Part shown: in pieces, positions 5,955 to 48,634 of the stretch
Numbering within the stretch: the first letter of the stretch is position 1
Layout of the letters: the number at the start of each line of letters is the position of its first letter
DNA from: Heloderma charlesbogerti
Lineage: Eukaryota; Chordata; Lepidosauria; Squamata; Helodermatidae
Assembly: GCA_026122225.1 (NCBI GenBank)
Contig: JANEZZ010000523.1
Coordinates: forward strand, 124,001-188,000
Direction of reading: 5' to 3'
DNA: 64,000 nucleotides
The notes under the pieces: generated by a model
Told to the model about the DNA's origin: nothing
Databases searched by the model: none
Seen by the model: the letters and a program-made list of their open reading frames with translations, nothing else
Made by a program: the position numbers and the translations under genes

Positions 5955-6843
5955 TAGGGATGTCAGAGAATTCCGCCACGGATCTTGGTGAGGCCGAATG
6001 CCAGTGCATTCAGCCCCCCAAAGTCCGTGGTGGAACGGCCTGCCACCCCCCCCGCCCCCGTGCGGATCCCCCCTGGGATGAGACTCACCTGGGGCGGATC
6101 TTCGGGGTGGCGGCGGCGGCTGCGGCGGCGGTGATGGCCAGTCTTCCGACTGGCTGCCGCCACCGCCATTTCCAGGCTTGTGTAAAAAAAAAAAAAAGAC
6201 GTGATAGGCTACATAAAGATTTACGTAGCCGATCATGGCTAGGGTTAAAAAAAAAGGAAAAAAAAGACGTGATAGGCTGCATACATCTTTATGTAGCCTA
6301 TCATGGTTGGGTGGGTTTAAAAAACAACAACCGCGTACGCAAATGGCAGCGGCTATGGCTGCCGCCATTTGCGTTCCTTCTTTTTACCGTATTAATCTAC
6401 ATAAATATTTACGTAGACTATGACGGCGAAAATCAAGGGGAATGCAAATAGCGTAGTGGGTGCTATTTGCGTCCCGTTTTGATTCGCTGTTTTAGCCTAC
6501 GTAAAGATTTATGTAGATTAAGATGGCCAAAAAGGGGGAACGCAAATGCTGGCAGCCGTACCCGCCACCATTTGCGTACGCGGTTGTGTGGGGTTTTTTG
6601 GTTTTTTACCCAGAGCCCTCTGCGGCTGGAAATCTGGCTGTGGACGGCTCTGTCCTGGCCAGGCCGGGCCTGGCTGGCTGCTCTGTGGAGCCGCCGCGGA
6701 GCACAGCCGGCTGTTCGAGGATTCCAGGGGAAGGAACGGAGCGCCTCCCCCCCCCGGCCAGGATTCCGGGGGGAGGGACGGAATGCCTCCCCCCCCACCA
6801 TCAACATAATCCGCAAAAGGTAAGTCACTTTCATACATCCCTA
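5955..6843 (+). mobile_element. Palindrome-chain hAT-like MITE, copy A (left-to-right)
   Basis: It starts TAGGGATGTCAGAG and ends TCATACATCCCTA, giving inverted TAGGGATG termini. Flanking 8-mers are TGGCTGAC (5947-5954) and TTGCTGAC (6844-6851), 7 of 8 identical, the length expected of a hAT target duplication. Inside the left end is the near-palindrome GCCGAATGCCAGTGCATTC. The interior alternates GTGATAGGCTACG-type palindromes at 6201-6236 and 6269-6304, diverged versions at about 6386 and 6487, and CGCAAATGGC-type palindromes at about 6339, 6442 and 6542. No transposase frame is present; overlapping GC-rich open frames on both strands are by-products of the symmetry. The right flank is an L2-like LINE end. 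Confidence 0.85.
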
Positions 6844-6851
6844 TTGCTGAC

Positions 6852-6962
6852 TGCTCCTACTCTCTGAAGTGAGTACTAGAGATAGGGTCTTCTCTGTGGT
6901 GGCTCCTCATCTTTGGAACCCCCTCTTCACATCTTTCATTGGCATCTTCTTTTTTGAATTTT
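6852..6962 (+). mobile_element. L2/CR1-like LINE 3' ORF-end fragment
   Basis: 'agggtcttctctgtggtggc' followed by 'tttggaacccc' is the conserved C-terminal coding and 3' UTR junction of L2-like LINEs; compare 57055-57392. It was probably split by MITE copy A upstream. Confidence 0.55.
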
Positions 6963-6963
6963 A

Positions 6964-7062
6964 GGGTGCAGTCCTCAACACAACTACCTGTAACAAAGTC
7001 CCATTTAACTCCATAAGGCTTTCTTCTGAGTAGACATGCATAGGATAGCGCTACTAGACACC
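6964..7062. repeat. Short MITE-like repeat ('gagtagacatgcataggat' family)
   Basis: It begins 'gggtgcagtcctcaacac' and ends 'ctgagtagacatgcatagg', which are inverted versions of one terminus. Relatives are at 26797-26936, 30068-30135 and 62404-62470. Confidence 0.55.
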
Positions 7063-7699
7063 AATTAAAAACACATGGGCATTTAGTGCGCTGCTATTTG
7101 ATACTGTTGCTGTTCCGTTTTGTTTCATGACTGCTGCATTGATTTGTTATTATATTGTAGTTTTATTTATCATATTGCAGTTTTTATTTTACTTTTAGAT
7201 ATTATCAGCAGCTTTGAGAACTCTTGGTTAGCAGGCAGGATACAAAATGTTTAGATAAATAAATAATCAATACATAAAGTTGGAAGAGAACTTATGCACA
7301 CATACAGTTGCTTTATCAGAGTTTTCGATTGCACAGTGAGAACCTTACCCGCACACAGTTGTACATGTTAGGCTCTGAACATCTGGAGATTGGGACTGGG
7401 AAAGCATGTGTGATGTTCTGTCCCGCCCCTGTGCATTGAAATAAGGTCTGAAAACAGCTAGACGTCTTCCAATTGTTTTCTTTTTCCAATCAATACCAAC
7501 TTTGTTACCATTAAAGATGCAGCTGAAATTTAATATCTAGCATTCTCAGCTAGCCTGAAAACTCTTCTCTTTTATTGCTCTTATTAACTACCTTGTGCAT
7601 GTTAGTTATTTCTATAAGATTTTATTGTAGATTGTTTTTATTGTTTGTAAGCTGTCTTGAGGGCCTGCTTTGGTAAAAACATGAGTTCTAACTATAGAA

Positions 7700-7905
7700 A
7701 GAGAGAACCTCTTTAATGAGCTTCCATCGTGTATTAAAAACGTGGTTGTTCAGGCAGGCATTTGGGGTGGGTTAGGGTATTTTAGAAAACGTTTTTATTG
7801 TTGAATTTTATTGTTTTAAACTGTTTTATTATATGCTGTACATCGCCCAGAGTGGCTGGGTGACCAGCCAGATGGGCAATTAATAAATTTAATAATAATA
7901 ATATA
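7700..7905 (+). mobile_element. L2-like LINE 3' end
   Basis: 'atgagcttccatcgtgtatt', 'ggttgttcaggcaggcattt' and 'cgcccagagtggctgg' followed by 'gatgggcaattaataaattt' form the typical 3' end of a reptile L2-like LINE, finishing in AAT/AT repeats. Confidence 0.65.
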
Positions 7906-7909
7906 TATA

Positions 7910-8810
7910 TAGAAAGAAAATGACAAATTAATGGGTGAGTAGACCCATCAATTGGCCCAAAATAAAAAAAAAATAATCTGCCCTATTCAAAGTCTTTACA
8001 CCTATGAGCACAAAAAAGGGGGGATAACATATACTGTGACATGTTCTTCCCAGGAACATCAGTCTGGACATCTCTAGAGACTGAGTGTGGACTGAATTGC
8101 AGCTTTGACCAGATCCAGCAAGGCAGTTCTTAGATTCATGTTACCATCCAAGTTTGGGAACTGAGCGACCAGAGTGGCCATTTTACACAATCAGTTTTCT
8201 CCTCTGCAGACCTGTAAATGCAGGTCATGATTCCTACATCTTAGGGTTATCAAGGAGACTGCTGCACTGAGTTGCTGTGCTTGACCGTATGTCCTAATGT
8301 TATTTATACAGGAACTGTGTTGATCTCTGGTGGAGACCATATGTGGTATAGATGGTGTTCTTGTGGACCAAAGTTTATGTGATAATCTCTTTGGGCTCTA
8401 CACATTATTTTCACCATGCAGTTGAGCTGATAACTGTGAATGATTGTATATGAGTCAAATTGGCAACTTGAATAGCACTTAAACGGGGAAACCTCAGCTG
8501 TAATGTAAAATCATATCTGTGCATAGAAGAAAAGCTCTGTCTTTGCATTTCTTTCTGGCTAGTGTTCAGAAGGGCTCTCAGTCACATACATCCAAGGTTC
8601 CTACTAGTCTTGCTTCAGGCTAAACATGAAACCAAGGCAGTATTGATAGTATTTTGGGATGATTCCTCATGGCAAGAGACACGGGTGAGATAGTTATGCT
8701 GATATTGATCAAAAAGTGCAATGAATCTGGCAGCCTGCCCAAACGGGAGACAGTAGATCTTTTTAAATTGCCTTCACTCATGTCTTCCTATCAGATTTTA
8801 AAGAGCAAGG
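7910..8810. other. TE-poor stretch, no gene seen
   Basis: Apart from A-rich runs I see no recognisable element. The open frame at 8669-8944 ends inside a 5S-derived SINE and is not a gene. Confidence 0.4.
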
Positions 8811-8816
8811 GTGGGT

Positions 8817-8968
8817 ATAGGATCATAGGGTTGGAAGGAGCCTACAAGATCATTGAATCCAACCCCCTGCTCAGTGCAGGAAGCCTGTTTCCCTTTCCCA
8901 GGCGGTCTCCCATCCAAGTACTGATTAGGGCTGACATTGCTTAGCTTCCGAGATCAGATGAGATCAGG
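8817..8968 (-). mobile_element. 5S-rRNA-derived SINE with CR1-like 3' tail
   Basis: On the minus strand it starts with a 5S-like head (GATCTCATCTGATCTCGGAA, then GCTAAGCAATG, then AGTACTTGGATGGGAGACCG). It continues into 'cttcctgcactgagcaggg' and a CR1-type tail ending in 'ccaaccctatgatcctat'. The 5S part covers the internal pol III control region. Such heads drive SINE3-type retroposons, and the CR1-like tail suggests mobilisation by CR1 machinery. The plus-strand relative is at 23464-23576. Confidence 0.8.
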
Positions 8969-8969
8969 A

Positions 8970-10160
8970 ACATCCAGCCCTTTCCTCTGTAGCTGCTACT
9001 CCTTCTTCTGGTGCCTGAGGGATTCATCCTGTTGCTGTTTCAGGATTTTATCTCTTACAGCTCTACATGGGGACCCATCATAGTGAGGTGTTGTGGACTG
9101 AGCTGTTAAAGAGAGGCTGTTGATGACAGGAAACGCTGAGTATTTTTGTTTCAGTTGGTGCAGACCCCATTTGATGCCTAAAATGTTCTAAGACAGTTGA
9201 AATATGGGTGATGAGCCATCTCAACATCTCTGGCTAAATATTTTCCTCACTCAAGATGCTTTGGTCATGAATAACTCATGCACTTGGTATTGGAAAGGCA
9301 CATGCGTGGAGGGCAACTGTCCCCATACCTCTTCCCCTCCACCTCTCCTGCATCCATTTTATGAACACAAAGCCTTCCCATGAAATTAACAGGTACACAA
9401 AACTGTAATATAGTATAGAAAGGGCAGAATTTCATCTCAATCGATTGAAATAACTGGATAGTCCTCAGCAGATGCCTTGATCCACATGGAATTTGCTGCT
9501 CCAGTGAATCAAAGAAGCCCCAAACCACTGCCTCTTTTGATGACAGTAGCTACACATAACTGTCATACTAAGTTTATCAATGTCAGTGCCCTGTGTGTTA
9601 CAAGGGACTCCTCAACTTTATTGTTTGTTTTATATGTGATACACTCTGCTGCATTTGAATGCTGGTTGCCCCCCTTAACTTGCCCTAACTTTATGAAAAG
9701 CAACCTTCCTCTTTTTTACTGCATAAGTTTCCCTTCACTGAAGTAGAAGTGATTTCCATGTTTGCCCAGATGAGAAAACATTCCCAGATGGGGCTAGATT
9801 AGAATAAAAGGTTGTGCTTGGGTCTATCTCCTGGAAGTAGGCTACTTGAATCCCCAAATTTTAAGATATATTTTGATATTTTCTGATTTCCCTCTACATT
9901 TGCATTTTGATTAAAAATTCTATATGGTGGCAGTGCCTGGGGAGCAAAACTTCAAGGAAATCCATTGTTTCAATGAATGTTACTCCCCCTCTGAACCAAC
10001 AAGCCTGGGGCCTTATAAGTCTTCCCTTAAAAGCAGATCTTATGCCGATGTCACCAGCAGTTCAGGCTAGGCTCACTCACAGGCCATGCCAGATTCTCAA
10101 GCTGGGTCAGAAATGCAACTTTGTTTTGTCCTGAAGGACAGCCCATGAAAAATGTAACTT
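8970..10160. other. TE-poor stretch, no gene seen
   Basis: No recognisable repeat. Open frames of fewer than 90 codons on both strands (9265-9746) carry no family motif. Confidence 0.35.
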
Positions 10161-10167
10161 CTTGAAC

Positions 10168-10289
10168 AGGGCTGGGGAAACTGTGGCCCTCCAGATGTTG
10201 TTGGACTACAACTTGACCATTGGCCAAGCTGGCTGGGGCTGGTGGTAGGTACAGTCCAATAGCATCTGGAGGGCCACAGATTCCCTACT
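10168..10289. mobile_element. Hairpin MITE ('ggccctccagatgttgttgg' family), copy 1
   Basis: The left arm 'tgtggccctccagatgttg' and right arm 'atctggagggccacagatt' are inverted repeats around a GGCTGG-rich centre. Termini begin CAGGG/TAGGG. It is a non-autonomous DNA element common in reptiles. No clear target duplication. Confidence 0.7.
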
Positions 10290-10349
10290 CTCTCTTCTAA
10301 AATCTGGGTAACTTCTCTACCCTACACCATACCGTAAAATGGATAGAGC

Positions 10350-10603: not shown

Positions 10604-10733
10604 TACAACCTTTCCCAACCTGGTGCTCTCCAGATATTTTGGACTACAACTCCCAGCATTCCTAGCATTGCTCATGCTAACTGGGTATGATGGGAGTTGA
10701 AGTCCAAAACATCTGGAGGGCACGAGGTTGGGC
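10604..10733. mobile_element. Hairpin MITE, copy 3 of the local cluster
   Basis: 'cccaacctggtgctctccag' at the left and 'tctggagggcacgaggttgg' at the right form long inverted arms. It is the third of three related hairpins within 570 bases. Confidence 0.75.
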
Positions 10734-11401: not shown

Positions 11402-11684
11402 GATGCCAGGTTTTGGGACTTCCCGTGTGCAAACTGAACTGTGGAGCCTCCCTAAAGATTTAAGCACCTACGAATGAATTATTCATGTTAGAATGAATAT
11501 AAATTGTAATGCTACACGTTACAGGCTGTACAAATGATGGCAGTACAAATTGTGCTCTTGATCTCTAATAATTTCAAAATACTTTTTATGCTGCATGCCT
11601 GTTTCTGACTGGATGGAAGCCGACTGGAGCACATCAAACAACGTCCTATCATGTGTTACCATGTAGTGAAGATGTTGTTGCAGG

Positions 11685-11883
11685 CAGTGGAGGCTGGTGG
11701 CACCGATGTCAGTGGGGCAGTGAATCCGCTCTGGGTTTCAGTCAGAACTCTAAAGGAGCTATCCAACGTAGCCCTAAATGGGTTCAGCACCCTAGATAGC
11801 TCCTGTAGAGTTCTGAATGGCTCCGGCTGAAACCCAGAGCGGATTCACTGCCCCACTGACCCAGGAGCCACTAGTCTCCACTG
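11685..11883. mobile_element. hAT-like MITE (CAGTGGAGGCTGGTGG termini), copy 2, near-complete palindrome
   Basis: The two arms (CAGTGGAGGCTGGTGGC... and its inverse ...CACTAGTCTCCACTG) pair over most of the element, including 'agtggggcagtgaatccgct'. Flanks GTTGCAGG (11677-11684) and CTTGCAGG (11884-11891) match at 7 of 8 bases. Confidence 0.8.
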
Positions 11884-12484
11884 CTTGCAGGAGGAGGTTA
11901 GAAGAACTAGTCTAGGATCCTGCAAGGCTGAGAACGTCTGTGATGTAAGTGAGGCAATCACCATTGTCTAGAGGGTAAAAGAACTAAAGGGGGGAAAGCC
12001 CATTCCGGTAGTGATAGTGTTCAGAGGAAGGGTAGACAACGTGGTGCCTGTGGCCACCAATGCACCCCAAACACCTTTTGTGGTGCCAGCCACAGAGCCC
12101 CACTTTGAGGCAGGGGGAGGAAGAATTACACATTTTCTTACTGGCATCTGGGATTGCTGTGAAATCTGTTTCTGCTGGTGCAAAAAATTGTGGGTTCAAA
12201 GGAGTTGATCAGTGCATTAGGGCTCAGGCCTCACCTCTGCCTTGTACTGAGACATGGCCTTTGCCATGACTCCCATAGCAGCCATTTTGTGGTGGGCCCC
12301 AGGACAATTTCTCAAATGGCCAAATGTGACCACAGCCCCAAAAGGTTGCTTTCCCCTGGGTTAGAGCTATGGCTGGAGTATCCCACAGAAGCAAGTTGGG
12401 GGCATTTTTTTGATTTTGATAAACCCGCTGGTGATCCCTGGCTAGCATCACACATTGTAAATGACTTCTTAAAGGTCAAAATCA

Positions 12485-12626
12485 GTAGTGTGAGGGCTCA
12501 GTCCTATGCATGTTTAGACAGAAAAATGTCCTCTGGCTCCCAGCATGCTCCAGCTTGCATGACAGACTGGGGCATGGTGGGAGTTGGAGGACATTTTTCT
12601 GTGTAAATATGCATAGGGTTGTGCCT
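12485..12626. mobile_element. Hairpin MITE ('cctatgcatgtttagaca' family), diverged copy
   Basis: The left 'cagtcctatgcatgtttag' and right 'aaatatgcatagggttgtg' are inverted, with 'aaatgtcctctggctccca' and 'gggagttggaggacattt' as inner arms. It is the diverged sister of the near-perfect hairpin at 18110-18240. Confidence 0.7.
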
Positions 12627-13618: not shown

Positions 13619-13730
13619 TAGGGATGTAGTAATTTAGATCAGCTGGAGAACTGGTCTAATGATTTAGGCCCTTCGCCTCAGCAGGCCTTCAGATACAAAT
13701 CTGCCAATACAGATTTGACTGGCAGGTACT
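13619..13730. other. Possible remnant of a TAGGGATG-terminus MITE next to the BovB insertion
   Basis: It begins TAGGGATGTAGTAATTTAG, like a hAT-type terminus, and runs to the BovB junction at 13731. I find no matching CATCCCTA end after the BovB, so this is only suggestive. Confidence 0.25.
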
Positions 13731-16595
13731 AAAGAAAATCCGATGCTGTAAAGAACAATATTGTTTAGGAACCTGGAATGTCAGATCAATGAATCAAGGT
13801 AAGCTGGAGGTGGTCAAACATGAGATGGCAAGATTGAACATCGACATCTTGGGAATCAGTGAACTAAAATGGACAGGCATGGGCGAATTTAATTCAGGTG
13901 ACCATCATATCTACTATTGTGGCCAAGAATCCCTTAGAAGACATGGAGTAGCACCCATAGTCAACAAAAGGGTGGGAAAAGCAGTACTGGGGTACAATCT
14001 TAAAAATGATAGAATGATCTCAGTACAAATCCAAGGCAAACCATTCAACATCACAGTCATTCAAGTCTATGCCCCAACCACTGATGCCGAAGAATCTGAG
14101 GTTGATCAGCTCTCTGAAGACCTACAACACCTTCTAGAAATAACACCAAAAAAAGATGTCCTCTTCATCATAGGGGACTGGAATTCTAAAGTAGGAAGTC
14201 AAGAAATCACCGGGATAACAGGCAGGCATGGCCTTGGTGTACAAAATGAAGCAGGACAAAAGCTAATAGAGTTTTGCCAAGAGAACACACTGATCATAGC
14301 AAACACTCTTTTCCAACAGCACAAGAGATGACTCTACACATGGACATCACCAGATGGTCAATATCGAAATCAGATTGATTATGTCCTTTGCAGCCAAAGA
14401 TGGAGAAGCTCTATACAGTCAGTCAAAACAAGACCTGGAGCTGACTGTGGCTCAGATCATGAGCTTCTTGTTGCAAAATTTTGGCTTAAATTGAAGAACG
14501 TAGGGAAAACCACTAAACCATTCAGGTATGACCTAAATCATATCCCTTATGAATATACAGTGGAGGTGCGGAATAGATTTCAGGGATTAGACCTGATAGA
14601 CAGAGTGCCTGAGGAACTATGGACGGAGGTCCGTAACATTGTTCAGGAGGCAGCAACGAAATCCATCCTAAAGAAAAAGAAATGCAAGAAAGCCAAGTGG
14701 CTGTCTGATGAGGCTTTACAAGTAGCTGTGGAAAGAAGGGAAGCGAAAAGCAAGGGAGAAAGGGGAAGATATATCCAACTGAATGCAGAGTTCCAGAGAA
14801 TAGCAAGGAGAGACAAGAAGGCCTTCTTAAATGAACAATGCAAAGAAATCGAGGAAAACAACAGAATGGGAAAGACTAGAGATCTCTTCAAGAAAATCGG
14901 AGATCTCAAGGGAGCGTTTTGTGCAAAGACGGGCATGATAAAGGACAAAGAAGGCAGGGACCTAACAGAAGCAGATGAGATTAAGAAGAGGTGTCAAGAA
15001 TACACAGAAGAACTATACAGGAAAGATCTGAATGTCCCTGATAGCCATGATAGTGCGGTCACTGAACTTGAGCCGGACATCCTCGAGAGTGAAGTCAAGT
15101 GGGCCTTAGGAAGCATTACTAACAACGAAGCTAGTGGAGATGACAGTATTCCAGCTGAGCTATTTAAAATCCTAAAAGATGATGCTGTTAAAGTGCTGCA
15201 TTCAATATGCTAACAAATTTGGAACACTCAACAATGGCCGCAAGACTGGAAAAGGTCAGTTTACATTCCAATTCCAAAGAAGGGCAACGCCAAAGAGTGT
15301 TCAAACTACCGCACAATTGCGCTCATTTCGCATGCCAGCAAGGTGATGCTCAAAATCCTACAAGCTAGGCTTCAGCAGTATGCGAACCGAGAACTACTGG
15401 AAGTACAAGCTGGGTTTCGAAGAGGCAGAGGAACTAGAGATCAAATCGCCAACTTTCGCTGCATCATGGAGAAAGCAAGAGAATTCCAGAAAAACGTCTA
15501 TTTCTGCTTCATTGACTACGCTAAAGCCTTTGATTGTGTGGATCACAACAAACTGTGGCAAATTCGTAAAGTGATGGGAGTACCAGACCACCTTACCCAT
15601 CTCCTGAGAAATCTGTACGAGGGTCAAGAAGCAACAGTAAGAACCAGACATGGAACAACCGAGTGGTTCAAAATTGGGAAAGGAGTACGACAAGGCTGCA
15701 TGTTGTCACCCTGCTTATTTAACTTATATGCAGAGTACATCATGAGAAATGCCGGGTTGGATGAATCAGAGGTCGGAATTAAGATTGCTGGGAGAATTAT
15801 CAATAACCTCCGATATGCAAACAATACCACCCTAATGGCAGAAAGCGAAGAGGATCTCAAGAGCCTCTTGTTGAGGTGAAAGAGGAGAGTGCAAAAGCTG
15901 GTTTGAAACTCAACATTAAAAAAACGAAGATCATGGCATCTGGCCCTATCATTTCCTGGCATATAGAAGGGGAAGAAATGGAAGCAGTGACAGATTTTAC
16001 TTTCTTGGGCTCCAAGATCACCGCAGACAGTGACTGTAGCCATGAAATTAAAAGACGCTTGCTCCTTGGGAGGAAAGCTATGGCCAACCTAGACAGCATA
16101 GTCAGAAGCAGAGACATCACCTTGCCGACAAAGGTCCGTCTAATCAAAGCTATGGTTTTCCCAGTAGTAATGTATGGCTGTGAGAGCTGGACTATAAGGA
16201 AGGCTGAGCACCGAAGAATTGATGCTTTCGAACTGTGGTGCTGGAGAAGACTCTTACGAGTCCCCTGGACTGCAAGGAGGTCAAATCAGTCCATCCTAAA
16301 GGAAATCAACCCTGAGTGCTCATTGGAAGGACAGATACTGAAGCTGAAGCTCAAATATTTTGGCCACCTAATGCGAAGAGAAAACTCTCTGGAAAAGACC
16401 CTGATGCTGGGAAAGACTGAAGGAAAAAGGAGAAGGGGACGGCAGAGGATGAGATGGCTAGATAGCATCACCGATGCAATGAATATGAACTTGAGCACGC
16501 TCCGGGAGAGAGCGCAGGACAGGAAGGCTTGGCGTGCTATGGTCCATGGGGTCACGAAGAGTCGGACACGACTGAACGACTGAACAACAACTAAT
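13731..16595 (+). mobile_element. BovB (RTE-clade) LINE, 5'-truncated, nearly complete ORF region and 3' end
   Basis: It begins within the 5' UTR/ORF boundary ('aagaaaatccgatgctgta'), covers the whole endonuclease-RT ORF and ends at the BovB 3' end 'gactgaacgactgaacaac'. The 5' UTR seen at 434-848 is missing except for the last bases, so it is 5'-truncated, as is common for target-primed LINE insertions. I could not find a convincing target duplication. Confidence 0.95.
13789..16583 (+). pseudogene. BovB endonuclease-reverse transcriptase ORF, inactivated
   Basis: The protein cuts target DNA and copies LINE RNA into it. Segments in order: endonuclease (13789-14480; GISELKWTGMGEF, QVYAPTTDAEES, GDWNSKVGSQE), linker, and RT (about 15250-15880; ISHASKVMLKILQARL, FCFIDYAKAFDCVDH, GKGVRQGCMLSP). 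A C-terminal domain follows (15876-16583; VVMYGCESWTIRKAE, RAMVHGVTKSRTRLND). Breaks: TGA at 14329-14331 where CGA is expected (CpG decay), TAA at 15211-15213 where CAA is expected, and a one-base loss near 15877 shifting frame 1 to frame 3. The RT active-site box reads RYANNTTLMA where RTE elements have YADD: both metal-binding aspartates are replaced by asparagine, so the enzyme would be dead even without the breaks. Confidence 0.95.
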
Positions 16596-18109: not shown

Positions 18110-18240
18110 GGCGCAATCCTATGCATGTTTAGACAGAGAACAGGCCTACAACTCCCAGCATGCCCCAGCCAGCAATGCTGGCTGGGGCATGCTGAGAGTT
18201 GTAGGCCTGTTCTCTGTCTAAACATGCATAGGATTGCACC
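18110..18240. repeat. Near-perfect 65-bp-arm hairpin (MITE)
   Basis: Arms 18110-18174 and 18176-18240 pair with two mismatches around a single unpaired base at 18175. They begin GGCGCAATCCTATGCATG and run through 'gtttagacagagaacaggcc' and 'cccagcatgccccagcca'. It belongs to the same family as 12485-12626 but is far less eroded. Confidence 0.9.
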
Positions 18241-20099: not shown

Positions 20100-21040
20100 A
20101 GCCTTTTTTTTTGCATTCATAACACAGTGAACACACTAATGGGTGAAAGCTAAAGATTGTATTAACCAGGAGCAAATTAACAAAGAAGAAAGCAAAACAC
20201 CACAGAACAAGATTATCAGGCTTCTGTCCCTACAGTTGCTGGGAATCCCATCAAAATATGGCAACGGATGTAGCTCTGATACTGACCTGGCCTTACGCAG
20301 CACCTTTCCGGATTGGCCTGCATTGAGACCCCACCCTGGGCATGTCTCAGAGATTCATGTATTCTTTTATGGTCATATTAACCCCGCCCCCCAGCCGAAT
20401 ACTCCAATGACTTTGAGAGTGTTTGGCAGTAAATCAGCATAGAGAACTCCGCGACTCTCCTAACAAGTAGCTAACCCTTGAGATCTCGCCAGAGGCTTAT
20501 CAGCCTCTCAAGTTGTTCACACTCAGACTCTGGGAATGAGAAGTATTGGAAACCACTAAAAGCCACAGACCCAACCAGAAGTCTAGACACGAGAAGGGGC
20601 CACTTGTTGTATACCACTAAATCCTCAAAATAACAGTAATCTTCTGCGCTTCTACTACAGAAGGCCATGAGTTCCCCACCCCTGAGTTATTACGAAGTGG
20701 GGCACTGTTTGTGTTAATTGGCATTTTTACAGGCTGTTCTCCCCCCTTTCCCCATCACTCCAAATGTAATTTTACACAAGGAAAACAGGACTTCTTAATA
20801 TTTTAAAAAATATTCCCTACCTTCTCTTTTTAGGTTGGCCTCACAATATAGAGAAGGCTACTCAGATGTGAAGTGGATGTATTGACCTTTCTCAACTAGT
20901 TTTTGTCTTTGTCCTGATTAGACCTGAAGGCTGAATGACATCCCACTCTGTACCATGTCAGTTCTACATTTTGACAACCAGTGGCTTAGAGCACCTCTTC
21001 CATTTTTACTCCACAATTCACGATCGGACCCTCTGTAGGT
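20100..21040. other. TE-poor stretch, no gene seen
   Basis: No recognisable repeat; short open frames only. Confidence 0.35.
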
Positions 21041-21045
21041 TGCTG

Positions 21046-21186
21046 AGCATGACATCCGAACCTGGAGCACTGGGTTGTTTAGGGGCTAAACAACCTAGCG
21101 GTTAACCCAACAACAAAGCATGGGTTAACTGCTGGGTTGTTTTGCCCCTAAATAACCCAGCGGTTCGGGTTCGGACATCACGCTCC
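21046..21186. repeat. Long inverted repeat (MITE core, 'ctgggttgtttaggggc' family)
   Basis: Arms of about 65 bases (21046-21110 and 21121-21186), GAGCATGACATCCGAACC... inverted as ...GGTTCGGACATCACGCTC, with a roughly 10-base loop and scattered mismatches. Flanking sequence to about 21340 also carries 'aacccattga/tgatgggttg' pairs, so the full element may be larger. Confidence 0.75.
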
Positions 21187-21476
21187 TCAACTTACGAAGG
21201 AGCTGATTGCGGGTTGTGGAGTAAAAGCGGACAAGGCAGGTGCACTGCAGGCAACACACCCATTTTCAGCCACTCGTGCACGATAACCCATTGATTTTTA
21301 AACTGATGGGTTGTTGTAACATGCGAACCAGGTCGTTGCATGTTCCTCCTTTTCATTTATGGTGCTGGAGGGTGATAGGAAAGTAGCCTATCATAGACAT
21401 TAGTTTTTGTTCCTGAGTATCTTTTAAGGATGGTATGATCTTAAATCATTTTACAGGCACATATGTCTGTCCTCAC

Positions 21477-27603: not shown

Positions 27604-28540
27604 TAGGGGTGCACGAAACCCACTTACCTGGTCTCGCAGCTTTTCGCGGTGGGGGGAAGGCGCTTCGCTGCTCTCCCCCCCAAAGTTCAGGCCGGGGGGG
27701 GAGGCTTCCCGCCTCGCCCGGCCGAAATTCAGGCCGGGGAGGAGGCGCCTCGCCTCGCCCGGCCGCGAAATTAAAAGTAAAACAAAAAAACAAAAAACGC
27801 CCCCGTGATAGGCTACGTGACGATTAACGTAGCCTATCACGGCTAGATCTGCAAAGCCAGCCGTGATAGGCTATGTAAATTGTCACGTAGCCTATCACAG
27901 GTGACTTAAAAAAAAAAAAAAAGCGCGTACACAAATGGCGGCCCCCATAGGGAGCCGCCATTCGCGTTCCTTATTTGGTCGCTGTAGTCTACGTAAACCT
28001 TTACGTAGACTACGGCGAAAATAAGGGCAACGCAAATAGCGTTGCCCTTATTTTCACCGTAGTCTACGTAATCTTTACATAGACTACAGCGACCAAATAA
28101 GGAACGGGAATGGCGGCTCCTTATGGGGGCTGCCATTATCCGTACGCGCTTTTTTTTTTTTTAAAGTCACCCGTGATAGGCTATGTGACGATTTACGTAG
28201 CCTATCATGGCTGACTTTGCAAATCTAGCCGTGATAGGCTACGTTAATCGTCACGTAGCCTATCACGGGGGCGTTTTTTTTTTTTTAGTTTTGGAATGGC
28301 AGCGGCGGCAGCCGGTCGAAAGATTGGCTGCCGCCCCCCTGCCCCTGACGAAGACCTGATGAACCGCCGCCGGGACCCGCCGCCGGGAGGGACATTCAGG
28401 AAAGGTAAGTCCCATCCCGGCGGGCTGCGGGATGCGGTGGGGGGGGTGCGGAGAATTTCTCCCTGAAACATGTTCCGGGGGCCAAACACGTTGGCGCTCG
28501 GCCCCCCGAAGTTTCGGGGAGAAATTCTCCGCCAACCCTA
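27604..28540 (-). mobile_element. Palindrome-chain hAT-like MITE, copy B (right end first)
   Basis: Both flanks are GCTGTGAA (27596-27603 and 28541-28548), a perfect 8-bp duplication. Termini are TAGGGGTGCACG and CCGCCAACCCTA, slightly changed from TAGGGATG. Orientation is opposite to copy A: the end with 'acttacctggtctcgcag' is at the left and the 'gaaattctccgcc' end is at the right. The interior is one huge nested palindrome (separate entry). No transposase. Confidence 0.9.
27798..28274. repeat. About 475-bp palindrome built from smaller palindromes
   Basis: Symmetry centre is near 28036, inside GGGCAACGCAAATAGCGTTG. Moving outward, both sides show in the same order: a GTAGTCTACG-type palindrome (27984-28013 and 28059-28087), a CAAATGGCGGC-type hairpin, an A or T run, and two GTGATAGGCTA-type palindromes (27805-27840, 27863-27898; 28173-28208, 28231-28266). 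Matching parts lie at matching distances from the centre, with almost no length change. Confidence 0.9.
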
Positions 28541-35056: not shown

Positions 35057-35524
35057 TAGGGATGGATTGACTCTCCCATGCCCAGCTTTGTCAGGTGCTC
35101 GCTGAGCTGCTGCTGCCCAGCCCTCCTCGCGGTGCTGTGCGAGCTTCGTCACGGCCCAGCAAGTGCCCGGCGAAGCTGCGGGGCTGCCTGTCCTCCCTTG
35201 CAAACCACCGTTGGGTGCAACAGTGGCAGCTCAGGCACTTCCAGGTAGGTGATGTTGTGCACTTGGCAGCCACGAATGCTTCATTCACACCTGTAATGTC
35301 ATGTAGATGCCCCCTTTACAGCAGCCAACATCCGAAAGCACCTGAGTCGCCAGTGTTGCGCATAGTGGTGGCTTCCTAGTGAGGATGGGCAGCTGCTGGG
35401 TGCTCACCAAGCCGCAGGGTGGTCGCCGGTCCGGTCCGTGAGCACCCCACGGTCCAGCAAGCGGGGTCTGGGAGGGCGGGCGAAGGGGAGTCCATCAGAG
35501 CCACGGACTCTCACGACATCCCTA
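35057..35524. mobile_element. hAT-like MITE with TAGGGATG ends and perfect 8-bp TSD, GC-rich
   Basis: It starts TAGGGATGGATTGACTCTCC and ends GACTCTCACGACATCCCTA. Both flanks are ATCTCTGA (35049-35056 and 35525-35532). The interior is GC-rich ('cccagccctcctcgcggtgc', 'ggtcgccggtccggtccgtg') without the palindrome chains, and without a transposase. Confidence 0.85.
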
Positions 35525-37559: not shown

Positions 37560-38324
37560 TAGGGATGGACGAAAGTCACTTACCTGATCCCGAAGCTTGC
37601 TTCACGGTGGGGGAGAGGCGCTCCCTCACCGTTTCTGGCCGCGAAACCTCCTGCCGGGACGCAAATGGCGGTGGCCGTAGCCTGGCCTGCAGTCAGCCGT
37701 GATAGGCTACGTAAATGTTTACGTAGCCTATCACGGCTGACTTTGAAAAAAACAAAAAAAGCACATACGCAAATGGCGGTGCCCATGGGCACTGCCATTT
37801 GCATTCCTTATTTTGGCATGGGTAGTCTACGTAAATATTTACATAGACTACAGCGAAAATAGCGTTGCCCTTATTTTCACCGTAGTCTATGTAAATATTT
37901 ACGTAGACTACCTGTGCCAAAATAAGGAACGCAAATGGCAGCGCCCATGGGCGCCGCTATTTGCGTACGTGCTTCCCCCCCCCCAAAGTCAGCTGTGATA
38001 GGCTATGTAAACATTTACGTAGCCTATCACGGTGTTTTTTGAAAATCTAGCCGTGATAGGCTACGTAAATCTTTACGTAGCCTATCACGTTTGTTTGTTT
38101 GTTTGTTTGTTTTACTTGGAAATGGTGGTGGCAGCCGGTCGGAAGACTGGCCGCCGCCGCTGCTGAACTGCTGCCGGGAGCCGCCGCCGCCAGGGACATT
38201 CGTTCAAAGTAAGTCCCATCCGGGGGGGCAGGGGGGCAGACCGTTTCTCCACCAATTTCAGGGGGCCGAATGCGTTGGCATTCGGCCTTCCGGAGATTCG
38301 TGGAGAAATTCTCTGACATCCCTA
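37560..38324 (-). mobile_element. Palindrome-chain hAT-like MITE, copy C (right end first)
   Basis: It starts TAGGGATGGACGAAAGTCAC and ends TTCTCTGACATCCCTA. Flanks CTGCCGAC (37552-37559) and CGTGCCGAC (38325-38333) agree apart from one extra base. Palindromes of the GTGATAGGCTACG type lie at 37699-37734, 37995-38030 and 38053-38088; GTAGTCTACG-type at 37822-37851 and 37882-37911; CAAATGGCGG-type hairpins at about 37769-37802 and 37931-37967. Layout is that of copy B with one outer palindrome and part of the centre lost. Confidence 0.88.
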
Positions 38325-39544: not shown

Positions 39545-40460
39545 GTCAGTCCCTATGAATCACAGCATGGAAGCAATGGCCTACTAATTAACTCTGCTTT
39601 GGCACATTTTTATTAGTATAGAGTTATTGTTGTTAATACTCCTAACTAATAATGCATTGAGGTTTAAGTTTTCTTGCCCTTATGTCTAAGAGGCTTATAC
39701 TGTTAACACACCATTTCTGACTCCTTACTGTAAAACAGTAAGGAGTCAGAAATGGTGTGTTAACAGTATCAGTGTTATTGGAAAGCCCTGGCTGATCTGT
39801 GGGAGTTGTGTTGACTAAGAGAGAAAGACGATACGCAGGCTTGCTATACAAGCACGTACCAGCAGTGTTATTAGGGCATAAAGCTGTTAGATTTTTTTTT
39901 AAAAAAAAATTTGTGAGGAAAGAATGAGGTATTATGGCTTTGGGGCACCATTTTCTTAGGTGGTTTTAATTGAGGGAGTTGACTGAAGAGGATTTATATG
40001 CACAAGGATTTATATTGTCTCCTTTCAAACACATCAAACTATAGAATTTTGAACACATAGGGCTTAAAAAAAAGCCTGTCCCCTCATTGCCATCTCTTCG
40101 TTCTAACAGAAACTGCTTTCTGTTTCCATGCCAACAGTTTGTTTGAAAGTTCAAATGTGCTACACTTAATTGTCTTGAATGTGAAGGTCTCTCTCTTATG
40201 AATGCTGTTGGTTTTCTATTCAAATTTAATAAGCATGCCTAATGGGGAAGACATTACTTTAGAACAAAATAAAGCCACAGGAGGTGGGACGGTGGGAGGT
40301 GGGTTGCTACCAAAAATACTGAACAGGAAGAGACAGCATCAATAGGAAATAAAAGAAAGATGGTTCTTTTAGCTATGTTTGAATATGTTTTCTTACCTTT
40401 TTTATCAGACTTTCTCATTCATTTAGCTTATGAGCTTCTGCCACCTTGGAATCATCACTT
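39545..40460. other. TE-poor stretch holding one perfect palindrome (39697-39769)
   Basis: Otherwise no recognisable repeat or gene; T/A run at 39892-39910. Confidence 0.4.
39697..39769. repeat. Perfect 73-bp palindrome (35-bp arms, 3-bp spacer)
   Basis: The arm ATACTGTTAACACACCATTT... at 39697-39731 is repeated exactly in inverted form at 39735-39769, separated by AAA. There is no mismatch in 35 pairs. Outside the arms the symmetry stops at once, and no transposon-like termini or target duplication are visible. Confidence 0.95.
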
Positions 40461-40463: not shown

Positions 40464-40746
40464 CCCAGTTCACACATAACAACAACCCAGGGTATGGGTT
40501 GAGTATGGGTTGTTGTTGAATTGTGGGTTGTCGTTATGTGAAAACCCTGCACTGTGGTTTAACTATGGGTTGTTAACCACAAACATCCCAGGAAGAGAAC
40601 CCATGGTTTGTTGTTGGGTTGTGAGCTCTGGGTTGTTCATGGTTAATAAACCATAGTTAAACCATAGTGCAGGGTTCGCACATAATGACAACCCATAATT
40701 CAGTGACAACCCATACTCTGGGTTATCCTTACATGCAAACCAGGTC
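40464..40746. mobile_element. Inverted-repeat MITE ('acaacccagggtatgggttg' family)
   Basis: Left 'cccagttcacacataacaac' pairs with right 'gttatccttacatgcaaacc'. Inner arms 'gtgaaaaccctgcactgtgg' and 'accatagtgcagggttcgca' are also inverted. Several ACAACCCA/TGGGTTGT units make it partly self-similar. Related in style to 39261-39541 and 21046-21186. Confidence 0.75.
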
Positions 40747-41285: not shown

Positions 41286-41289
41286 AGCC

Positions 41290-42800
41290 TTTCACTCACA
41301 AAGAAACCCTCAAAAAGGTGGTGGGGGGAAGATCCAGGCAATTACCAGGCACCTTGGCATCAATACCTGGAAAGGTTCTAAAGCAGATAATTGAGCAATC
41401 AGTCTGTCAGCATTTAGGAAAGAAAAGCCCTGGGATCATAAAGAGCCAGCACAGTTTTTCCAAGAATAAGGCATGCCAGACTAACCTTATCTCCTTTTTT
41501 TGATAGCGTTACTAGTAGGGATGTCGGAGAATTTCTCCATGAATCTCCGGGAGGCCGAATGCCAACGCATTCGGCCCCCCAAAATTGGTGGGGAAATTCT
41601 CCGCCCCCCCGTCCCCCCCAGGATGGGACTTACCTCCTGCGGATGTCCCTTGCGGCGGTGGGTCCCGGTGGCGGTTCGGTGGTGGCGGCGGTGGCCGGTC
41701 TTCCGACCGGCTGCCACCGCCGCCATTTCCAAGTAAAAAAAAAAAAAGTGATAGGCTACGTAAAGATTTACGTAGCCTATCACGGCTAGATTTTCAAAGT
41801 CAGCCGTGATAGGCTACGTAAATCTTTACGTAGCCTCTCACGGCTGACTTTGAAAATCTAGCCGTGATAGGCTACGTAAATCTTTACGTAGCCTATCACT
41901 TTTTTTTTTTTTTACTTTACTTTTTTCTTTCGCGGCCGGAGAGGCGGGGCGCTCCCCCCTGGCCAGAATTTCGGCAGGGAGGGACGGGGCGCCTCCCCAC
42001 CCGCCAAGAATTTCGGGGGGAGAAACGGAGTGCCTCCCCCCCCCAAAAAAATCTGCAGGACCAGGTAAGGGACTTTTGTCCATCCCTAGTTACTAGCCTG
42101 CTAAATCAGGGGAATGCTGTGGTCATAGTATATCGTGATTTCAGCAAGGCTTTCAACAAAGTCCCCGATGATATTCTGGTTGGCAAGCTGGTAAAATGTG
42201 GGCTAAATGATGCTACTGTTTGGTGGATTTGTACCTGATTGATGGATCATACCCAAAGAGTGCTCACTGGTGGGTCCTCGTCTACCTGGAGAGAAATAAC
42301 AAGTGGGGTGTTCCTCTTTCTCTTTTTGCTTCAGTCAGACCTCACCTGACTACTGCATCTAGTTCTGGGCACTTTAAGAATGGAGTTTAAGAATGATATT
42401 GACAAAGTGGAACGTGTTCAGAGGAGGGCAATGAAGATTGTGAGAGGTCCGGAGACCAAATCCTATGAGGAAAGGTTGAAGGAGTCGAGTTGAGTATGTT
42501 TAGCCTGGAGAAGAGACCATTAGGACTAATTTAGGAGGAAATATGAGAGCCATTGTCAAATAACATAAGGGCTGTCTCATAGATGACAGAGCAAATTTGT
42601 TTTCTGTTGCTCCAGAGGGTAGGACCCAAACCAATGGATTGAAATTACAAGAAAAAGGATTTAGACTAAACATTGGGAAGGGCTTCATGTTGGTAAGAGC
42701 TGTTCAACAATGGAACAGACTGCCACCACAACAGGTAGTGTTCCCTTTTGTTAGGAGTTTTTAAGAGTCTGGATGGCCACTTATCAGGGGTTCTGCAGTA
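41290..42800 (+). pseudogene. CR1 reverse transcriptase ORF remnant
   Basis: Fragments of an ORF2-type RT are readable in order but broken by the 573-bp MITE at 41516-42088, a stop after WWICT near 42237, the deletion near 42305, and later stops and frameshifts. In CR1 elements the protein has an endonuclease followed by RT; the endonuclease is not present here, consistent with 5' truncation near 41290. Non-functional. Confidence 0.8.
41516..42088 (+). mobile_element. Palindrome-chain hAT-like MITE, copy D, inserted in CR1
   Basis: It starts TAGGGATGTCGGAGAATTTC and ends CTTTTGTCCATCCCTA. Both flanks are GTTACTAG (41508-41515, 42089-42096), an exact 8-bp duplication that also fits the hAT preference nTnnnnAn. 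Three GTGATAGGCTACGTAA-type palindromes of 36 bases at 41748-41783, 41806-41841 and 41864-41899 are separated by 22-base linkers that are inverses of each other ('ggctagattttcaaagtcag' and 'ctgactttgaaaatctagcc'). Left-end near-palindrome GGCCGAATGCCAACGCATTC at about 41552. No CAAATGGCG-type hairpin in this copy. Confidence 0.92.
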
Positions 42801-43470: not shown

Positions 43471-43474
43471 ACCA

Positions 43475-44782: not shown

Positions 44783-45235
44783 TAGGAGTGTATGAACCCC
44801 ACTCACCCATCTGGTCTGGGGCATCCGCTGGGGGGGGAGGCGATCCGTCCCTCCCCCTGGAATCCTTCCCGGCTGGCTCCGCTCCATGGCAAGTCCACGG
44901 AGCAGCCAGCTGGTCCGTCCACAGCCAGACTTCCGTCCGCTGCCACGCAAATGGCGTCCGACGTAGCGGATGCCATTTGCATCCCTGCCCTTGGCCGTGA
45001 TAGGCTACGTAAATATTTACATAGCCTATCATGGCCAAGGGCGGGGATGCAAATGGCATCCGCTACGCTGGATGCCATTTGCGTCCACAGCCCGGCAGCG
45101 GATGGCTGTGGATGACAGCGGATGGACCCGGACCAGCCAGCGCCAGGTAGGGTCCGTCCCTACCAGACTTCGTGGGGTGGTGGTGGGGAGCAGTCCGTTC
45201 CACCATGGACTCTGTGGATTTCTCCACCATCCCTA
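44783..45235 (-). mobile_element. Palindrome-chain hAT-like MITE, copy E, inserted in CR1
   Basis: It starts TAGGAGTGTATGAACCCC and ends ATTTCTCCACCATCCCTA. Flanks AAGCAAAT (44775-44782) and CAGCAAAT (45236-45243) match at 7 of 8, and removal restores the CR1 reading LKANKSLGPDG. It is the shortest copy: one GTGATAGGCTACG-type palindrome at 44997-45032 flanked symmetrically by CAAATGGCGTCC-type hairpins at 44946-44982 and 45047-45084. The whole 44946-45083 block is therefore palindromic about 45014. Confidence 0.9.
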
Positions 45236-45459
45236 CAGCAAATAAATCACTGGGCCCAGATGGTATCCATCCTAGAGTTCTCAAAGAACTCAAATATGAA
45301 ATTGCTGATCTTGCTGACCGAAATATGCAACATGTCCCTAAGATCAGCTTCTATATCAGAGGACTGGGAGATGGCCTATGTAACACCAATGTTCAAAAAG
45401 GGATCTAGGGGGGATTTGGGAAATTACAGGCCAGTTAGCTTAATGCCTTTTCCAGGTAA

Positions 45460-45535
45460 ATTTCCATGTTAGGCATAATTAGGCATAATTTCCATAATGT
45501 TAGGCATAATTTCCATGTTAGGCATAATTAGAAAA
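45460..45535. repeat. Short imperfect tandem repeats ('ttccatgttaggcataatta') at the CR1 deletion junction
   Basis: The unit 'gttaggcataatt' occurs three times between 45470 and 45530 with 'tttccat' between, at the point where the CR1 RT core is missing. Confidence 0.75.
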
Positions 45536-45678
45536 GGAATTGAGAAAAAAACTGCCAATATCATAGTGCCCCTATACAAATCTGTGGTGCGACCACACTT
45601 GGAACACTGTGTCCAGTTCTGGTCAACAGACCTAAAAAAAGATATTGTAGAGCTGGAAAAAGTGCAGAAAAGGGCAAC

Positions 45679-46523
45679 TAGTACGAATCCCTTACCTGGC
45701 TCCGCACAGGGGCATCCGCAGAGGGGTGGAGGTGCTCCGTCCCTCCCCCCGAATCCTCCCCGGCTGGCTCTGCTCCGCGGCTGCTCCGTGGAGCCGCCGG
45801 CCAGAGCCATCCACAGTCGGAGTTCCAGCCATGGCTGGGCGGCTGCAGCCGCAAATGGCCATAATAGCAGCCGCCATTTGCGTCCTGCCAGGCTGCCGTG
45901 ATAGGCTACATAAGTATTTACGTAGCCTATATGTAAGTATTTACGTAGCCATTTGTGTCCTGCCAGGCTGCTGTGATAGGCTACGTAAGTATTTACGTAG
46001 CCTATCACGGCAAAGAGCAGGGATGCAAATGGTGGCCGCTATGCTGTTTACGCCCCTGCTCTTTCCGTGATAGGCTACATAAGTATTTACGTGGCCTATC
46101 ATGGTAAAGGCAGCCACGCAAATGGCGTAGTGGCTGCCATTTGCATCCTGCCAGGCTGCCTTGATAGGCTACGTAAGTATTTATGTAGCCTATCACGGAA
46201 AGAGCAGGGGCGCAAACGGCGTAGCGGCTGTCGTTTGCATCCCTGCTCTTTGCTGCGATAGGCTACGTAAATACTTATGTAGCCTGTCATGGCAGCCTGG
46301 CAGGACACAAATGGTGGCTGCTACAACGGCTGCCATTTGCAGCCGCAGCAGCCGGCTGAGAAACCAGCCGCCTCCGCCGCATCCACTGTAGATAAGCTTC
46401 GTTCCTAGGGGATAATGCGGGGTGGCGGGCGGTGGGAGGCCGTTCCACCACGGGTTTCGGGGGGCCAAATGCCAGTGCATTCGGCCTCACTGAAATCCGT
46501 GGCAGAATTCTCCACCATCCCTA
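45679..46523 (-). mobile_element. Palindrome-chain hAT-like MITE, copy F, inserted in CR1
   Basis: It starts TAGTACGAATCCC (the TAGGGATG terminus with an apparent 4-base loss) and ends TTCTCCACCATCCCTA. Flanks AGGGCAAC (45671-45678) and AGAGCAAC (46524-46531) match at 7 of 8, and removal restores the CR1 reading. The right end holds the near-palindrome GCCAAATGCCAGTGCATTC. The interior is the 94-bp-period array described separately. Confidence 0.88.
45898..46290. repeat. 94-bp-period array of alternating palindromes
   Basis: GTGATAGGCTACGTAAGT-type palindromes start at 45973, 46067, 46161 and 46255, exactly 94 bases apart; a truncated one starts at 45898. Between them sit CAAATGGC-type hairpins (about 46025, 46116, 46211, 46307). 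The linkers next to each hairpin are mutual inverses ('ggcaaagagcaggg' with 'cccctgctctttcc'), so each 94-base step is a long hairpin plus a palindrome. Confidence 0.92.
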
Positions 46524-46824
46524 AGAGCAACTAAAATGATCAAGGGGCTGGAGTATCACCCCTATGAGAGAAGGTTACAACAGCTGGGATTGTTTAGCTT
46601 GGAAAATAGGAGGGTAAGGGAAGATACGATAGAAGTCTACAAAATTATGCATGGTGTGGAGAATGTGGATAGGGAGACATTTGTCTCCCTCTCTCAAAAT
46701 ACTAGAACCTGGAGTCATCCTATGAAGCTGATTGGTGGGAGATTCAGGACAGATAAAAGGAAGTACTTCTTCATGCAACACATAGTTAAATGATGGAATT
46801 TGCTACTACAGGATGTAGTGATGG

Positions 46825-48634
46825 TAGGCATGGCGGAGAATTCCGCCATGGATCTCGGTGAGGCCGAATGCCAGTGCATTCGGCCCCCCTGAAATCTGTG
46901 GCGGAATGCAGCCCCCCGGCCCCCCACTGGAAATGGGTCTGGAATGGAGCCTACCTTTGTCGGTCATTCCGATGCTCCTCGAATGGCAGAGGCGTCTGTA
47001 GCCGCCATTCACGTCTTTCGAATGGCCATGATAGGCTACATAAATACTTACGTAGCCTATCATGGCTAACGCAGAGACGCCATTTGCATCCCTGCGGAGG
47101 CTGTGATAGGCTACGTAAATATTTACGTAGCCTATGATGGCAAAAAAATAGGGATGGCGGAGAATTCCGCCACGGATTTCAGTGAGGCCGAATGCACTGA
47201 CATTCGGCCCCCTGAAACCTGTGGCGGAATGGCCTCCCACCCCCTTCTCCCCCGGGACGAAGCTTACCTGGGGTGGATGTTCCGGCGACGGCAACGGCGG
47301 CTGGTCTTTCAACCGGCTGCCGCGGCCGCCATTTGTATCTGCTTTTGGCCGTGATAGGCTACATAAGTATTTACGTAGCCTATCACGGCAAGCAAAAAAC
47401 AAAACAAAACACAGCGTATGCAAATGGCGGCAGCTACGGTGGCCTCCATTTGCTTTCCCTTTTTTTCGCTGTTCTAGCCTACGTACATATTTATGTAAGC
47501 TATTATGGCAAAAAAAAAGGGGAACGCAAATAGCGTAGTGGGCGCTATTTGCGTTCCTTTTTTTCGCCATAATAGCTTACGTAAATATTTATGTAGGCTA
47601 AAATATTTTGGCAGGAAACAAAAAGGAACGCAAATGGCGCCCACTACGCTATTTGATTTACCTTTTTTTTGCCGTAATAGCCTACGTAAATATATATGTA
47701 GGATAAAACGGCGAAAAATACAGAACGCAAATGGCGGCCGCCGTAGCCTCCGCCATTTGCATACGCTGTTTTTTTTTTTTTGGCCTGCCGTGATAGGCTA
47801 CATAAATACTTACATAGCCTATCACGGCGGCCTGGCTGGACGCAAATGGCGGCCATTACAGTGGCCGCCATTTGCATCCACAGCAGCCCATCCGTGGCCG
47901 GAACTCCATGCCACGGTGGAGCCACCGTGGAGCGTAGCTGGCTGGGCAGGATTCTGGGGGGGAGGACCGGATTGCCTCCCCCCCCCGTAGAGGATTCTGG
48001 GGGGAGGGACGGAGCGCCTCCCCCCCACCGCGAATCACATCTGCAAAAGGATAAGTGACTTTCGTACATCCCTACCAAAAAAGGGAACGCAAATTGCGGT
48101 GGCTGCGGTGGCCGCCATTTGCATTCCCTTTTTCACTGTGCTACGTAAATATTTATGTAGCCTATCACAGCTAAAAAAGGGAACGCAAATGGCGGCCGCC
48201 GTAGCCGCTGCCATTTGCATTCCCTTTTTTTTTTGGCGTGATAGGCTACGTAAATATTTACATAGCCTATCATGGCTAAAGTGGGAACGCAAATGGCGTA
48301 GGGGACGCCATTTGCGTCCCTGCTTTAGCCATGATAGGCAATGTAAATATTTATGTAGCCTATCATGGGCCGGCGTAGGGATGCAAATAGTGTCCCCTAC
48401 ACAGGACGCCATTTGTGTCCGCAGCAGCCTGGCAGCGGCTGGAGGCCCCGCTGTGGATTCGCCCAGCCGGTGGCTCCGCGGCCTGGCCGTGGAGCAGAGC
48501 CAGCTGGGCAGGGTTCCGGGGGGAGGAACAGATCGCCTCCCCCCCGTCGAGGATTCCAGGGGGAGGAATGGATCGCCTCCCCCCACCTGCGGAACCCGGC
48601 AGAGCCAGGTAAGCGGGGTTTCAAACACCCCTAA
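46825..48634 (+). mobile_element. Palindrome-chain hAT-like MITE, copy G, inserted in CR1 and hosting copy H
   Basis: It starts TAGGCATGGCGGAGAATTCC and ends GTTTCAAACACCCCTA. Both flanks are AGTGATGG (46817-46824, 48635-48642), an exact 8-bp duplication, and removal restores the CR1 reading around LLLQDVVMATNLDGFKRRL. G's own sequence is 46825-47148 plus 48083-48634. It has palindromes at 47028-47063, 47103-47138, 48136-48170 (with a small deletion), 48238-48273 and 48331-48366, and CAAATGGCG-type hairpins between. Confidence 0.92.
47149..48074 (+). mobile_element. Palindrome-chain hAT-like MITE, copy H, nested inside copy G
   Basis: It starts TAGGGATGGCGGAGAATTCC and ends GACTTTCGTACATCCCTA. 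Flanks CAAAAAAA (47141-47148) and CCAAAAAA (48075-48082) match at 7 of 8. Palindromes at 47351-47386 and 47790-47825; a TAGCCTACGTA-type variant near 47474, 47569 and 47672; CAAATGGCGGC-type hairpins near 47420, 47524, 47628, 47727 and 47840. Orientation is the same as the host copy G. Confidence 0.92.

Follow-up and report, generated by a model that had tools for sequence, protein, structure and literature searches.

Nested palindromes in a hAT-like element family of Heloderma charlesbogerti: probable origin at the founding of subfamilies, followed by inheritance

A 64,000-nucleotide stretch of the Heloderma charlesbogerti assembly GCA_026122225.1 (contig JANEZZ010000523.1, positions 124,001 to 188,000; the window hereafter) carries eight related elements, A to H, whose cores are mostly palindromes built of smaller palindromes. 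Comparison with copies from the rest of the 2.3 Gb host genome leads us to propose, at a probability of about 0.6, that these are non-autonomous hAT elements in which each subfamily began with a fresh mirror duplication, or with arm homogenisation, and inherited its palindrome thereafter. All eight were found where an analysis of the sequence by itself (the original prediction) had placed them, with one correction read directly from the letters, the end of G being 48633 instead of 48634. The 8-bp target duplications predicted for all eight are likewise present, perfect in B, D and G and with one difference in A, C, E, F and H; that of H is poly-A, and that of C needs one extra base before the right copy, in a register that we chose. 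The elements are as follows.

5955..6843, + strand: element A, 889 bp; duplication TGGCTGAC/TTGCTGAC; master palindrome 6327-6587, axis 6457 (module b')
27604..28540, - strand: element B, 937 bp; duplication GCTGTGAA/GCTGTGAA; master palindrome 27779-28292, axis 28036 (b'); genome-wide subfamily
37560..38324, - strand: element C, 765 bp; duplication CTGCCGAC/GTGCCGAC, one extra right-end base; master palindrome 37697-38032, axis 37864 (b')
41516..42088, + strand: element D, 573 bp; duplication GTTACTAG/GTTACTAG; master palindrome 41731-41917, axis 41824 (a-type)
44783..45235, - strand: element E, 453 bp; duplication AAGCAAAT/CAGCAAAT; master palindrome 44945-45084, axis 45014 (a-type); without the GGCCGAATGC palindrome
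45679..46523, - strand: element F, 845 bp; duplication AGGGCAAC/AGAGCAAC; left end damaged; master palindrome 45949-46314, axis 46132 (b)
46825..48633, + strand: element G, 1809 bp including H; duplication AGTGATGG/AGTGATGG; of a subfamily with TAGGCATG left ends
47149..48074, + strand: element H, 926 bp, nested in the core of G; duplication CAAAAAAA/CCAAAAAA; master palindrome 47348-47828, axis 47588 (a'); genome-wide subfamily
35057..35524, strand not assigned: ninth element with the same 8-bp ends and a perfect duplication ATCTCTGA; no modules and no self-inverted alignment

The ninth element came from a scan for TAGGGATG-like pairs lying 100-4000 bp apart with 8-bp flanks differing by at most one mismatch. 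Among the 55 pairs examined, seven had matching flanks against 0.02 expected, namely A, B, D, E, G, H and the new pair; C was missed for its extra base and F for its damaged end. The new element is a relative of the family by its ends only, and is hAT-like. Further family copies were not found in the window by BLAST, only one of 1352 matches lying outside the elements, with a length of 21 bp. When nine joined-flank queries were used to look for empty sites within the window, only that of H aligned across the junction. No exact match of a 32-base a-module was found in viral contigs, and Rfam gave no match within the elements at gathering scores.

Nested palindromes in the element cores

Each of A-F and H has a single dominant inverted axis, and the master palindromes of these seven elements, 140-514 bp in length, have an ungapped arm identity of 84-98%. 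With H set aside, the palindrome of G is weaker (75% at its best axis and 74% at a rival one). Self-inverted alignments scored 700 bits in B, 471 in H and G, 395 in F, 360 in C, 306 in D, 204 in A and 199 in E, against at most 40 bits in 20 dinucleotide shuffles per element. The best of 58 element-free 900-bp tiles reached 214 bits, more than A and E and less than the other elements, indicating that palindromes as such are common in this region and not distinctive. What sets the elements apart from other palindromes of the window is nesting: 3 axes were counted in A, 9 in B, 8 in C, 5 in D, 1 in E, 6 in F and 8 in H, and one axis in each of nine non-family palindromes. The interiors, which had been described as chains of palindromes, are therefore not simple chains; by this one measure, six of the seven elements have a master palindrome made of smaller palindromes, E having its one axis.

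The further description of two palindrome types in alternation holds in part. Both types are present; D has three a-type palindromes and no complete b-type, and a-type neighbours adjoin each other in A, B and C. The a-type palindrome, defined as a 24-mer with at most three mismatches, occurs 22 times in the window, always within elements and never in B, and 0 times in 100 shuffles; 33 of the window's 34 a-type modules were aligned. A, B and C have in common the central module b' and the inner order b, a', b', a', b. The basic piece of the core is a half-unit that joins a b half-site through a linker to an a half-site; successive half-units alternate in orientation, and the entire series is mirrored. 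Examples of the two module types are given here.

41752..41895, strand not assigned: a-type modules with TAGGCTACGTAAAT half-sites, three in D
47724..47763, strand not assigned: b-type module with ACGCAAATGGCG half-sites, in H

The non-family palindromic repeats, with one axis each, lie at 18110-18240 and 12495-12625 (both 131 bp, with arm identities of 96% and 80%; the two look related by eye) and at 61657-61862, 11679-11889, 21004-21226, 39694-39772, 40501-40718, 54670-54793 and 10614-10732.

Inheritance and founding of the palindromes

Genome searches considered 31,886 candidates for a G+H query and 9,067 for a B query, figures that are not copy counts, and 40 were scored for each, 39 of those for the B query being further B-type matches. 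The copies examined are spread over many contigs. For the H-type, 19 loci represent 17 additional independent copies, since two pairs of loci each seem to be a single insertion that was duplicated; the B-type is represented by 29 additional copies and the G-type by 11 that are uninterrupted. Each of H, B and G is a member of its own genome subfamily. With ends taken as the best of nearby candidates, the genome check found the two copies of the 8-bp duplication identical at 11 of the 19 H-type loci (one difference at 5 others, two at 2 and six at 1), at 23 of 29 B-type loci (1 with one difference and 5 with at least four; two loci have the same duplication) and at 5 of 11 G-type loci (2 with one, 1 with two and 1 with three differences; 2 without clear ends). 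The insertion site of H is empty and uninterrupted in all 11 G-type copies, which match at 68-76 of 80 bases across it. Over the bases aligned, H-type copies share 87-91% identity with H, and their best axis maps to 47584-47594 in 18 of 18 copies, H included. Because this axis is fixed, gain and loss of hairpin modules from copy to copy, by which the copies had been thought to differ, is not the main story; the window copies differ largely because they come from different subfamilies of fixed layout, as shown for B, G and H.

Within these subfamilies the two arms can be told apart. At diagnostic sites, the 30 B-type copies have the letter of their own side at 384 of 420, that of the other side at 18 and a third letter at 18, and H-type copies have the own-side letter at 550 of 684, with 10 third letters and 10 gaps. 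Since the copies hold their own-side letters, the arms were not remade copy by copy: the palindrome is inherited within a subfamily, and there is no general arm conversion among B-type copies. The tree of H-type arms also groups by side, 16 n-arms and 2 g-arms against 16 g-arms and 2 n-arms (98/96). A strict clade of sides is only marginally rejected in this set (approximately unbiased test, p-AU 0.041), which is due to two copies, L006 and L014, in which the arms have traded their innermost core block, as an inverted centre would leave them. With the core turned round, both score higher by small margins (608 to 591 and 596 to 582), whereas none of the other 16 copies does. The exchange has the form of a spacer inversion.

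Majority sequences were used as proxies for the founders, L006 and L014 being excluded from that of H. Their arms differ at 7 of 257 pairs (2.7%) in B and at 19 of 261 (7.3%) in H, whereas arms of B and H align with each other over only 166-169 columns, at 85-87%; the axis lies on b' in B and on a' in H. That majority arms are more alike within B and H than between them argues that each subfamily acquired its mirror, by new formation or by homogenisation, at about the time of its founding. The elements would be moved by a transposase that recognises TAGGGATG-type ends and whose gene lies elsewhere in the genome. A half-unit would have been repeated in alternating orientation and the whole then mirrored, and each subfamily would owe its founding to a fresh mirroring, or to homogenisation of the arms, about one resident hairpin. 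The likeliest route would be synthesis folding back on a hairpin (template switching), for which we infer both process and timing; after founding, the palindrome would merely be inherited and decay. Fold-back templated synthesis is expected to give inverted copies, homogenised arms and inverted spacers; yeast template switching products are described as having arm homogenisation and spacer inversion (PMC8604942), and template switching is described as creating and repairing stems in RNA genes (PMC8794818). A more specific version, in which the fold-back rewrites the far arm from the near arm, the near-perfect palindrome founds a burst, the axis moves between founders and the centre can flip later (as in L006 and L014), is offered tentatively, at somewhat less than even odds.

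The main competitor to new mirroring, which we regard as rather unlikely, holds that gene conversion between arms in master lineages kept the founder arms alike. It accounts for the one centre that A, B and C have in common, and insertions in one terminal repeat of Galileo are said to pass to the other (PMC4168063); by itself, however, conversion does not shift an axis to another module, and the scarcity of other-side letters among B-type copies makes it rare after founding. If instead one ancestral master palindrome had formed once and its subfamilies had diverged without correction, the b' centre and inner order of A, B and C and the side-wise grouping of H-subfamily arms would follow, but the axis would not be found on different modules among subfamilies, nor majority arms alike at 98% (B) and 93% (H) and only at 85-87% between B and H. 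Grouping by side across subfamilies is also rejected for the window arms: in their tree each of B, C and H has its own two arms paired, with strong support for the C pair only, and a side-constrained tree was rejected at p-AU 0.000128 in a test named after the tree had been seen. We consider a single ancestral palindrome improbable. Re-mirroring at each transposition, every copy inserting with near-identical arms, is scarcely credible. The divergence of window arms (122 mismatches in 1122 columns, with 48 gap columns dropped and arm limits taken from local alignment) is not different from that of the target duplications (5 of 64; p 0.54), a comparison that is a result only and not a clock. By contrast, the founder arms were already 2.7% and 7.3% apart with the differences kept on their proper side, and H-type arms group by side and not by copy, so that the genome copies refute such re-mirroring for B and H.

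Ordinary tandem expansion of a palindromic unit, which we find about as improbable as the single ancestral palindrome, agrees with the periods given by Tandem Repeats Finder (68 in A, 58 in D, 94 in F and 105 in H) and with the direct arm score of F (172), which is near its inverted score of 232. Against it, the best match of 60-base core windows is inverted in 223 of 290, direct in 57 and tied in 10 (2, 5 and 3 in the left half-core of G), and the b' loops, as read from their sequence, are oppositely oriented on either side of the H axis. Tandem expansion is thus disfavoured for B, C, E and H, and may have had a partial role in F. As for selection of the hairpins because RNA from them functions, which we judge very improbable, the seven palindromic elements do fold more stably than base-shuffled sequences (for example, -688 against -325 kcal/mol in B), with the palindrome-free 35057 element at -219 against -191 kcal/mol; yet any palindrome folds, and arm mismatches have no G-U bias overall (49 GT to 37 AC on the + strand, 41 to 45 with the elements oriented). 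F alone is skewed, 16 to 3. RNA-level selection and covariation in single modules were both tested and were not supported overall.

Several results count against founding by mirroring or homogenisation with later inheritance. The founder comparison covers two subfamilies, B and H; the H subfamily has the other-side letter at 114 of 684 sites, 31 of these in L006 and L014; and two axes tie at 84% in the G-type. In the window-arm tree, support for the B and H pairs is weaker, and the arms of A do not resolve. Thirteen of 14 window arms fit their own mirror best (the left arm of A prefers H, 137 to 132), but the axes were picked for best self-match, which favours that outcome. An axis-free test is weaker, with the own element best in 177 of 295 core windows, another in 104 and a tie in 14, and there A, C and G lean slightly to other elements. 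Halves of single a-modules match no better than swapped halves in the covariation test. Finally, none of the five transposase loci inspected, out of 150 scored, could be tied to TAGGGATG-type ends.

Long palindromes are generally regarded as unstable, yet this family has carried them throughout a genome of 2.3 Gb. With copies that can be dated and arm letters specific to each side, its subfamilies form a natural record of palindromes made, moved and flipped, one that could render hairpin-templated synthesis testable in an animal genome. If birth by mirroring is true, the element would evolve via mirror events and not by point change or tandem repeat.

Ends, transposase and neighbouring features

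For comparison of the ends, A, D, G and H were read forward and B, C, E and F in reverse. The TAGGGATG-type ends predicted for most elements, variants included, were confirmed on the eight; they presumably resemble those of maize Ac. The inverted ends span about 8 bp in most copies, and further inward the two ends differ. One end had been said always to have a GGCCGAATGC-centred near-palindrome and the other a GGGGGGAGGGACGG block, in which "always" is too strong on both counts. The near-palindrome is exact in six of eight elements, has two mismatches in B and is lost in E (four mismatches); the block is exact in A, F and H, has one or two mismatches in D, E and G, and has four in B and C, no better than a match at the opposite end. 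The GC-rich blocks of the G-end are likewise more variable than had been stated. By eye, the end sequences fall into two groups, B+C+D and A+E+F+G+H. A ACTTACCT-like motif lies close to both ends in most copies: read outward as AGGTAAGT it is exact close to the G-end in A, B and C, and ACTTACCT inward of the n-end hairpin is exact in B and D. This motif may be splice-donor-like in its outward reading AGGTAAGT, or may be a transposase site. Two examples of end structure are listed.

41525..41603, strand not assigned: n-end subterminal hairpin of D, outer GGAGAATTTCTCC region and inner GGCCGAATGC
37560..37585, + strand: G-end tip of C, AAGTCACTT at bp 14-22 followed by the ACTTACCT motif

Support for the predicted family as hAT-type and non-autonomous comes from the 8-bp duplications, present in window and genome copies alike, and from the empty H sites in 11 of 11 G-type copies. 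Short terminal inverted repeats of hAT elements are given as 10-25 bp (PMC3942097). With the target preference nTnnnnAn described for Hermes (PMC10368747), 10 of 18 diagnostic positions match in nine left duplications, against 4.5 expected at one in four; among the window duplications scored, the fit is full in C and D, and in A for the right copy only. The elements are short (453-937 bp; G is 875 bp without H and one duplication copy) and gene-less, with inverted ends and many similar copies, as in miniature inverted-repeat transposable elements (MITEs). Long inverted repeats that reach the ends, as in foldback-type elements, are not seen: the master palindromes are internal and the ends are distinct sequences.

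No hAT domain was found in 40 of the window's 55 frames of at least 110 amino acids, and the ten frames that overlap elements gave one weak domain match, below cut-off. In the genome hAT transposase domains are frequent, all 150 candidates scored out of 871 being above the Pfam cut-off. An autonomous partner with the same ends, which the prediction had proposed to look for, was not among the five loci inspected, none of which is bounded by TAGGGATG-type ends; at one (L062), family copies lie near the domain but do not bound it. Some of the transposase loci have open frames near 900 amino acids, and several have identical scores and 879-amino-acid frames, which suggests a recent hAT burst, related to the palindromic family or not.

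Other features of the window include a match to 5S ribosomal RNA at 8874-8991 on the - strand (Rfam RF00001, 46 bits), which may be a pseudogene or a short interspersed element derived from 5S, and a long interspersed element (LINE) remnant with endonuclease and reverse transcriptase domains at 13663-16583. LINE-tail-like repeated sequence occurs in both orientations at 48834-48916, 49870-49957, 50345-50427 and 51528-51596, which we take to be of a kind present in squamate genomes.

Comparison with known systems

The sequence of the family was not found in searches of the open-access literature, where sequence motifs are rarely searchable as text. The suggestion of an undescribed architecture nevertheless goes too far, since a hAT MITE of Atlantic cod, gadMor-hAT-1784, in which multiple internal inverted repeats follow one another in tandem, is in print and is the closest published architecture found (PMC12368964). 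As that source describes it, gadMor-hAT-1784 has two terminal repeats, each about 600 bp long and composed of tandem units of 167-169 bp, and lies at inversion breakpoints (PMC12368964). By contrast, the repeats of the Heloderma elements are internal and their two ends are different and unique; their half-units are about 30-50 bp in alternating orientation, and copies lie on many contigs. It is by description that the two are set apart.

In Anopheles gambiae, 6 of 32 novel terminal inverted repeat/palindromic MITE-like clusters are said to be palindromic repeats, and the passages describing them state no hAT assignment and no nesting (PMC3212995). Hermes is similar in its 8-bp duplications and in an AAGT/AAGC quasi-palindrome, described as BED-bound, at about bp 15-23 of the left end, and Tol2 is described as having AAGTACTT directly after the terminal repeat (PMC10368747). 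In A, C and H (three of eight) the Heloderma motif AAGTnACTT occupies bp 14-22 of the G-end, nearly the same end position as the Hermes quasi-palindrome; unlike in Hermes and Tol2, the end motif is altered or absent in five of eight window copies. Galileo, a Foldback-like element, resembles the family in that its inverted repeats are reported to vary in length and structure among copies and to acquire each other's sequence, and differs in belonging to the P superfamily and in having terminal repeats (PMC4168063). Bacterial interspersed mosaic elements, as described, also combine palindromic units, regular spacing and alternating orientation (PMC2817692); these are bacterial, and the likeness is one of analogy only.

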